The notes beneath the pieces were generated by a model that did not search any database, was not told where the DNA came from, and saw only the letters and a list, made by a program, of their open reading frames with translations. A program made the position numbers and the translations under genes. From IMG/VR virus record IMGVR_UViG_3300044675_003385, positions 1-20,907 of that record: a stretch of 20,907 nt of DNA. One strand, written 5' to 3'. This DNA comes from a virus. Shown here in pieces: positions 15,155-16,728 of the stretch (its first letter is position 1; each line of letters opens with the position of its first letter).

Positions 15155-15346
15155 TTATTTTTTTACTGCTTTTTTAATTTCTTTTGGTTCTGTTTTTACT
15201 GCTTTTTCTATTTCGTTTTCAACTATTTCAGCAAAGCCATTTTCAACTAATTCATCAGCTTGGTTTGAGTTAATTTCAGCTAATTCGCCTACATGATAAC
15301 CTAATCCAAAACCTACTGGACTTTTTATAAATTTTATTGTTTTCAT
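15155..15346 (-). CDS. Small capsid-connector region protein, 63 aa
   Basis: The best start is the ATG at 15346 (MKTIKFIKSPVGFGLGYHVG). An in-frame ATG at 15385 would add 13 residues but lies inside the tRNA-like hairpin, so I do not use it. Residues 1-45 form a small beta domain with a helix (NSNQADELVENGFAEIV), and the Lys/Glu-rich tail is likely flexible. A short protein of this kind between capsid and connector genes occurs in many HK97-type phages of Bacteroidota. Its role (capsid stabiliser or connector aid) is unknown. Translation may be coupled to the capsid gene through the hairpin. Confidence 0.72.
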   Translation of the reverse strand: MKTIKFIKSPVGFGLGYHVGELAEINSNQADELVENGFAEIVENEIEKAVKTEPKEIKKAVKK

Positions 15347-15350
15347 CTTG

Positions 15351-15393
15351 AAGCGTGGGGAGGTATCGAACCTCCCTAATTCCATTCACGCTT
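15351..15393 (-). other. tRNA-like acceptor/T-arm minihelix after the capsid gene
   Basis: On the minus strand AAGCGTG (15393-15387) pairs with CACGCTT (15357-15351), seven perfect pairs. Ten unpaired bases (AATGGAATTA) follow the first strand, then GGGAGG pairs with CCTCCC (six pairs) around the seven-base loop TTCGATA. On the 3' side the two helices touch with no gap, exactly as acceptor and T stems stack in tRNA, and GGTTCGATACC fits the T-arm/B-box pattern. D and anticodon arms and the CCA end are absent. It ends four bases before the next start codon. Confidence 0.72.
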
Positions 15394-15402
15394 AATTAAC
15401 TA

Positions 15403-16728
15403 CTAAGTAGTTGTTGCGTCTAATATTGCTGCAAATGCTGACGGCTGTTTAACCGCTACACCTACATATTGGTTCATTACAATTCTTGTTTTACCTCCAA
15501 TTGCTTGTGAAGCTGGGTCAACTACTAAATCAATTCCACCATATTGGCCTACTACTAAGTTTTCCCAATCTCCAAAAATGATAGCTGAACAAATACCAGA
15601 TGCTGTTCCTTTTGTTAGATTACTTGGCACATTTGAAGTACTGTAAGTTTCTTTACCTGCGATTTGTTCAGGTTGGCCCATAAAGTAGCTCATGTAAGGC
15701 ATAATCATTGCGCCTGAACCGCTATCGATTACAGTTTGCTTTAATTTTGCTACTACTTTAGGATTTACTAAGAATTTACCATTCATTCCTGCATTAGCTG
15801 TTTCTACAACTTGGATTAATTCTAAAATCTTAGCTAAAGTTGGAGCACCACCATTAGTTCCAATTGCTACTGAGCCAATTCCACTAGTACCTAACAAACC
15901 AGTAGGCTGTCCGCTTGAACCTGAACCATTAATTGCGGCCGCTTCAATTGCTACTGCAAATGCTTTTAAGAATGAATTAGTAGTATATTGCTGAATAGAA
16001 TAGTTATTTTGTAACAATAACTGTTTAGACAAATCCACATAAGCAGTCAAACGCTTAGGAGTGATAGAACGGCTTGCAGTTGTTGGGTCACCTGCACTAG
16101 CATCTGCAACTTCAGTAGCCCATCCTGCTGTTACACCTGCGCTAAATCCAGTTAAGTCTGTATTAGCTGCCAATCCTTCCAATTTTACTGCTCCTAATTG
16201 AGGTAAAACAGTTTTAGCATACAAAGCATCAAAGAAACCTACTTTTTCAGTAGCAATAAAGTTACCACCTGCGGTTGAACTACCTGCACTCATTGTACGT
16301 TTTTCAACTTGCATAAATCTGTTAGATAAATACAAACCATCACCCATTGAGCCTAATTCTCTTTTTTCTTTTGCGCTTTCTTGTAAAATTTCACGCTCAA
16401 ATCCAGTAACTCCGTTTTCGTCACCTCTTGAAATTGACATTTCACGAATTAACTTACCAAAGCTAAAATTTTCTAATTCTCTTTTTTCTGAATTAGGAGT
16501 TGCAATTGGAGTTGGATTGTTTGCTACTTTATCAGCTGCAAATTTTTCACGTAATTCAGCATTTGAAATTTCAGTATCAAATGTTTTTACTTCGGTTTCG
16601 ATTGAGCGCAAACTAACTAACTCTTCGCTTGTTAATTCTCTCTTTTCGTTTTCAGCTTTAGAAACTATATTAGCTCCTTCGGCTCTTTTTTGTGCCTGTA
16701 ATTGGCGCAATTCTACACTTGTTTTCAT
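15403..16728 (-). CDS. Major capsid protein, HK97 fold, 441 aa
   Basis: Residues 1-75 are a charged coiled-coil delta domain (RELTSEELVSLRSIETEVKT) that would be removed by the prohead protease encoded upstream. Later segments match HK97 capsids: KLIREMSISRG near the N-arm, GGNFIATEKVGFFDALYAKT, TAYVDLSKQLLLQNNYSIQQ (spine helix and E-loop region), AINGSGSSGQPTGLLGTSGI, and a C-terminal YVGVAVKQPSAFAAI. The length is typical for a capsid with its own scaffold domain. Two tandem stops (TAG TAG) end the gene, and the tRNA-like hairpin follows nine bases later. The precise cleavage site cannot be read. Confidence 0.93.
   Translation of the reverse strand: MKTSVELRQLQAQKRAEGANIVSKAENEKRELTSEELVSLRSIETEVKTFDTEISNAELREKFAADKVANNPTPIATPNSEKRELENFSFGKLIREMSISRGDENGVTGFEREILQESAKEKRELGSMGDGLYLSNRFMQVEKRTMSAGSSTAGGNFIATEKVGFFDALYAKTVLPQLGAVKLEGLAANTDLTGFSAGVTAGWATEVADASAGDPTTASRSITPKRLTAYVDLSKQLLLQNNYSIQQYTTNSFLKAFAVAIEAAAINGSGSSGQPTGLLGTSGIGSVAIGTNGGAPTLAKILELIQVVETANAGMNGKFLVNPKVVAKLKQTVIDSGSGAMIMPYMSYFMGQPEQIAGKETYSTSNVPSNLTKGTASGICSAIIFGDWENLVVGQYGGIDLVVDPASQAIGGKTRIVMNQYVGVAVKQPSAFAAILDATTT

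Follow-up and report, generated by a model that had tools for sequence, protein, structure and literature searches.

RNase P binds stacked acceptor and T helices and accepts minihelices; the D-loop is dispensable for this recognition and a T-like loop is needed (PMC11221534; PMC4919913). The enzyme also acts on polycistronic operon mRNAs and on phage RNAs, and phage C4 antisense RNA, M3 RNA and T4 gene 32 mRNA are among its natural non-tRNA substrates (PMC11143913). In phage RNAs or between operon genes, those natural substrates present tRNA-like or hairpin structures as targets, and the element described here resembles them in this. To our knowledge, none of them is a conserved acceptor/T-arm copy located right behind a capsid gene, and the acceptor/T-arm minihelix has so far been known mainly as a laboratory model substrate. 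The model substrates of RNase P (pATSer and acceptor/T-stem duplexes) and the external guide sequences have in common with our element a stacked acceptor/T helix of 12–13 bp, a T-loop and the lack of D and anticodon arms. However, they are engineered and usually carry a 3' RCCA, whereas the phage minihelix is natural, is part of a late mRNA and is followed by CAA, its cleavage being putative.

Other comparable elements occur at the same gene position. Phage-encoded tRNA genes are represented there by a tRNA-Val(CAC) gene in one relative (contig L095); in contrast, the minihelix has neither anticodon arm nor D arm and is unable to decode. Post-capsid hairpins and intrinsic terminators also share its position and probably its general task. 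Unlike them, the minihelix is devoid of a U-tract, but it harbours an internal bulge, a T-loop and an invariant acceptor sequence.

Locus and architecture of the minihelix

The stretch of DNA that we analysed (hereafter the window) is the IMG/VR record IMGVR_UViG_3300044675_003385, 20,907 nt in length, with its phage genes on the minus strand. They code, in this order, for terminase, portal, prohead protease, an HK97-type major capsid protein, a 63-aa protein, a gp6-like connector and tail proteins. The capsid relatives of the window are nearly all metagenomic, and the hosts of these uncultured, minihelix-bearing phages are probably Bacteroidota, judging from sequence character, from the guess made in the first-pass annotation and from one related contig (L120) found in a Bacteroidia MAG. 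The features of the intergenic region and its flanks are as follows, all on the minus strand and in the direction of transcription.

15403..16728, minus: major capsid gene (PF05065; phrog_617 major head protein), upstream of the minihelix
15399..15411, minus: small palindrome ACTAC-TTA-GTAGT spanning the capsid stop codon (weak evidence, as coding constraint applies)
15387..15393, minus: 5' strand of the acceptor-like stem, AAGCGTG, invariant in 7/7 distinct versions
15377..15386, minus: 10-nt linker AATGGAATTA replacing the D and anticodon arms; GGA and final TA conserved
15371..15376, minus: 5' strand of the T-stem, GGGAGG, with compensatory changes relative to 15358–15363
15364..15370, minus: T-loop-like heptaloop TTCGATA; CTCGATA and TTCAATT in relatives
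15358..15363, minus: 3' strand of the T-stem, CCTCCC, pairing with GGGAGG, with compensatory changes
15351..15357, minus: 3' strand of the acceptor-like stem, CACGCTT, stacking directly on the T-stem
15347..15350, minus: 3' tail CAAG before the next ATG; CAA is constant in relatives, at the place of the encoded CCA of a tRNA
15155..15346, minus: 63-aa gene (phrog_2616, function not assigned), downstream of the minihelix and followed by the gp6-like head-tail connector gene

The minus strand thus reads, over the 43 nt from 15393 to 15351, AAGCGTG AATGGAATTA GGGAGG TTCGATA CCTCCC CACGCTT, then CAAG, then the ATG at 15346. The first-pass annotation had described helices of 7 and 6 bp with a gapless 3' strand, a 10-nt linker and a 7-nt loop, placed between the capsid gene and the next start codon and ending 4 nt before the ATG, and both this geometry and this placement hold on the minus strand. 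Its description of the T-arm as consensus held in part: the loop TTCGATA is there, but position 60 is an A and not the usual pyrimidine, so that the window is near-consensus only. A sister allele, TTCAATT, has the full T-loop consensus.

With an acceptor stem of 7 bp, no gap and a T-stem of 5–6 bp, the element belongs structurally to the tRNA acceptor/T-arm minihelices. Its minimum free energy is –20.0 kcal/mol versus a mean of –10.4 for shuffled sequences (z = –3.9), and 0/200 shuffles fold as well. The first acceptor pair is A-U, not G-C. With a T-stem of 6 bp, most alleles total 13 bp rather than 12, although those with the TTCAATT loop allow a canonical 7 + 5 reading. The linker is NNNGGAAGTA in nearly all relatives, and by analogy its GG may correspond to G18G19 of the tRNA D-loop.

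ARAGORN and Rfam searches at gathering thresholds reported nothing for the minihelix. At loose thresholds, the tRNA-like Rfam matches were confined to T-arms of tmRNA models, at a non-significant 6–7 bits. The cloverleaf of the tRNA family (RF00005) is absent, as ten bases stand for both the D and the anticodon arms. A nucleotide search of phage records with the minihelix yielded short stretches only; a tRNA-Leu of a Bacteroides phage shares an identical 20-nt T-arm stretch with it, which is not significant as homology (E 0.4). No published description of such an element was found in the open-access literature. The minihelix fits no described family and can be classed as a tRNA-like cis element in an mRNA.

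Two other interpretations of the intergenic region were discarded. An intrinsic terminator does not fit, as no U-tract was found and CAAGATGAAAAC follows the hairpin. An ATG in the linker (15383–15385, minus strand), in frame with the next gene, would add a 13-residue N-terminal extension and may mislead gene callers. This extension is not conserved: the linker ATG is replaced by AAG in L003 and is out of frame or absent in L020, L022 and L035.

Conservation and covariation in close relatives

We collected relatives of the window by their capsid proteins, without regard to the minihelix. Wherever the capsid is at least 82% identical and the gap is intact, the relative carries it in this same position. 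A pattern scan in which T-stem and loop were left free identified 22 other IMG/VR contigs that carry it, all behind the capsid gene, and in all 22 the loop is [CT]TC[AG]AT[AT]. Together with that of the window, there are seven distinct versions of the minihelix. All 13 base pairs are kept in all seven, and three T-stem pairs have changed on both sides; column pair 21–33 occurs as AU, GC, CG and UA. The covariation score is 0.227, versus 0.063 in shuffles, none of which (0/500) reaches it, and at most 0.066 when the partner strand is slid. The RNAalifold consensus fold agrees with this result. The first-pass annotation had named a lack of compensatory changes or of T-loop conservation as grounds for abandoning its proposal; on the contrary, relatives display both compensatory changes and T-loop-like loops throughout. 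The proposal is supported in part, its RNase P cut and its start codon opened by ribosomes being candidate mechanisms.

The acceptor shows no change at any of its 14 positions and the linker at most two in ten, compared with a divergence of up to 0.46 (46%) at fourfold sites of the capsid gene. No covariation is seen in the acceptor within this group because it never varies there. Relative to the T-loop consensus TTCRANY, T55, C56, R57 and A58 are kept in all versions; deviations are A60, seen in several alleles, and the C54 of the GGGCGG allele, which makes up one large allele group. In shuffled sequence, T-loop minihelices of this geometry occur at 0.39 per Mb-strand, and in the fetched loci this geometry was found only behind capsid genes, bar one A+T-rich chance match. 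A pattern scan without the acceptor returned the same group again plus chance matches. The minihelix is therefore under clear evolutionary selection, and it is neither a chance hairpin nor a terminator.

Comparison of L025 with L112 showed that the flanks are 96% (upstream) and 98.5% (downstream) identical, yet 7/19 T-arm bases differ. This suggests that T-arm versions, that is, 19-bp blocks of T-stem and loop, may be exchanged between phages in a cassette-like manner by recombination. Since the T-arm differs as a block between near-identical flanks, it is the distinct alleles, and not the number of contigs, that constitute independent evidence. Separately, contig L114 carries a complete tRNA-Thr at 855–928, which need not be a match to the acceptor-free pattern.

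The post-capsid site in other lineages

We found independent tRNA-like elements behind more distant capsid genes as well. Contigs L174 and L182–L187 have a linker-less T-loop minihelix, AAATAATGAGGGG-TTCGA(A/C)T-CCCCTCATTATTT (L174:3828–3860), after a capsid gene whose product in L174 is 44% identical to that of the window. Their loops, TTCGAAT and TTCGACT, are textbook T-loops that vary at position 59 only, a position that is free in tRNAs. In L228, a 10-bp T-loop hairpin with the loop TTCAACC is located behind the capsid gene. Among 311 distinct continuous 9-bp hairpins with a 7-nt loop in the fetched DNA, three have a T-loop, and all three are behind a capsid gene. T-loops are found exactly behind the capsid gene in at least three lineages.

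A different element, GGGCGGT-GT-GGCTTAGCGGCC-TA-TCCGCCC-RCCA/ACTA, directly follows the capsid stop in L054–L077, whose capsids are ~59% identical to that of the window, and in L120. It is 34 nt long and comprises a 7-bp acceptor-like stem, a small D-arm-like inner hairpin and an NCCA/NCTA 3' end, a few nucleotides before the next ATG. Four of its pairs have changed on both sides, and pair 7–24 is often unpaired. Its reading as a tRNA derivative is less certain than that of the minihelix. An alternative pairing of ATAGG with CCTAT can also be drawn.

The complete tRNA-Val(CAC) mentioned above is located in the intergenic region after the capsid gene at L095:3845–3917 (also at L011:4345–4418) and is preceded by a separate hairpin. 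A single gene position in this way shows tRNA-like forms that range in several steps from a complete tRNA down to a minimal mimic.

Behind the capsid gene of most other relatives with a gap is an ordinary hairpin or a terminator. Among them are L097 and L098, whose capsids are 80% identical to those of the L174 group and which carry a plain hairpin devoid of a T-loop at the same place. Similarly, across 37 capsid clusters, most of those with a gap of at least 40 nt carry a hairpin with a clearly negative z. Isolated phage genomes provided only distant capsid relatives, of which Cellulophaga phage phi39:1 has a hairpin with a T-run at the post-capsid place, and only three matches came from scanning 395 Bacteroidia genomes for the capsid, two of which were new and added no further element. 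The occurrence of tRNA-like and plain hairpins at the same spot points to a general post-capsid hairpin site at which several lineages use a tRNA mimic. As many relatives have a plain hairpin or a terminator, likeness to a tRNA appears to be one solution for this site and not a requirement.

Candidate functions

In our view, selection maintains the minihelix as a cis-acting structure of the late mRNA, one that mimics a tRNA's acceptor stem and T-arm. We propose that it would punctuate the transcript between the capsid message, which is very abundant, and the connector genes, which are expressed at a low level. The folded minihelix would give the capsid mRNA a stable 3' end and insulate the connector genes, the next start codon, 3–5 nt from the base of the helix, would be kept partly sequestered, and a cut by RNase P at the 5' base of the minihelix would split the capsid mRNA from the downstream mRNA. 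To this explanation as a whole, tRNA-mimic punctuation with a probable RNase P cut, we assign a probability of about 0.45. Its parts differ in strength. As a hairpin behind the capsid gene is a property common to the relatives, the baseline interpretation is that it bounds the capsid mRNA, and we consider this role fairly likely for the minihelix. An effect on the next start codon is less certain.

Cleavage by RNase P is proposed with some reserve, at rather less than even odds. The predicted site is the 5' base, because the minihelix presents the stacked acceptor/T helix and the T-loop that this enzyme measures, and a T-loop that persists on a changing stem suggests that tRNA shape is what is being read. 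The distance from T-loop to putative cleavage site is 13 bp, or 7 + 5 in the TTCAATT alleles, within the 12–13 bp of RNase P substrates. Bacterial RNase P normally pairs with a 3' RCCA, although this is not strictly required of all substrates. The minihelix has no RCCA to pair with P15 of RNase P RNA, all alleles having CAA instead. The A-U first pair, the total of 13 bp in most alleles and the C54 allele group also count against RNase P, a C at loop position 54 being expected to weaken a true T-loop. So does the invariance of the acceptor sequence, which is unnecessary for recognition of shape and suggests that something reads more than shape. Other possible readers are RNase Z, tRNA-modifying enzymes or a sequence-specific protein.

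The main alternative, which we regard as unlikely but by no means negligible, is that the element is just a strong post-capsid hairpin, a barrier to 3' exonucleases that retards decay or transcription with no involvement of a tRNA enzyme, its tRNA look reflecting the stability of the T-loop as a loop or descent from a tRNA gene. In its favour, most capsid clusters with a gap of at least 40 nt carry stable hairpins with all kinds of loops, and the T-loop-free hairpins of L097/L098 and the plain hairpins or terminators of most other relatives indicate that the site can fulfil its general role without any tRNA-processing enzyme. However, an unconstrained hairpin would not hold a T-loop in every allele while its stem changes four ways, nor does it account for a 10-nt bulge with conserved GGA..TA, for the invariant acceptor sequence or for the recurrence of T-loops at exactly this place in separate lineages. 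It is improbable that the element is primarily a translational gate, in which the helix would hide the next start and make translation of the connector depend on ribosomes finishing the capsid gene, ~9 nt upstream. The helix does end 2–5 nt before the ATG in all alleles, and the 20 nt preceding the ATG are on average predicted to be only ~30–36% unpaired. Nevertheless, any hairpin would serve this purpose, which leaves the T-loop unexplained, and the ATG is ~15–27 nt away in the L174 group and in most relatives with plain hairpins.

The invariance of the acceptor beyond the needs of pairing could also reflect a protein-binding site (for a tRNA-modifying enzyme, EF-Tu or the capsid protein acting as a repressor) or a decoy for a host defence that cuts tRNAs. 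The T-arm alleles, which seem swapped as blocks between flanks 95–98% identical as if under their own evolutionary pressure, would agree with this, but nothing indicates a free, separately transcribed form, and we consider such a role decidedly improbable. Even less probable, to the point of being hardly credible, is an attP core derived from a host tRNA gene or a decaying, functionless tRNA pseudogene. The likeness to the 3' part of a tRNA and the full tRNA-Val at the same site in a relative recall such an origin, yet the acceptor retains its 5' strand in conserved form, and the compensatory changes show selection. In addition, neither the T-arm plus acceptor string nor the model R1 had a match in 295 sampled Bacteroidia genomes (0/295 each), a thin sample without a positive control.

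If the tRNA-mimic explanation is true, the window contains a natural, evolutionarily maintained acceptor/T-arm minihelix within an mRNA. It offers a direct test of the idea that the proportion of capsid to connector proteins is set through RNase P, an essential enzyme of the host that phages would have recruited. By extension, minimal tRNA copies might serve more generally as punctuation of phage mRNAs, read by host tRNA-maturation enzymes that would cut the late transcript after the capsid gene, which can be likened to the tRNA punctuation of mitochondrial transcripts. Depending on the lineage, such punctuation would then take the form of a complete tRNA, of an acceptor/T-arm minihelix whose D-loop-like linker is present or absent, or of an acceptor with a small arm and an NCCA end. 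We regard this extension as speculative and rather doubtful.

Finally, the small palindrome at the capsid stop codon reads ACTGT-TTA-ACAGT in several relatives, and it is possibly a second hairpin just 5' of the minihelix.
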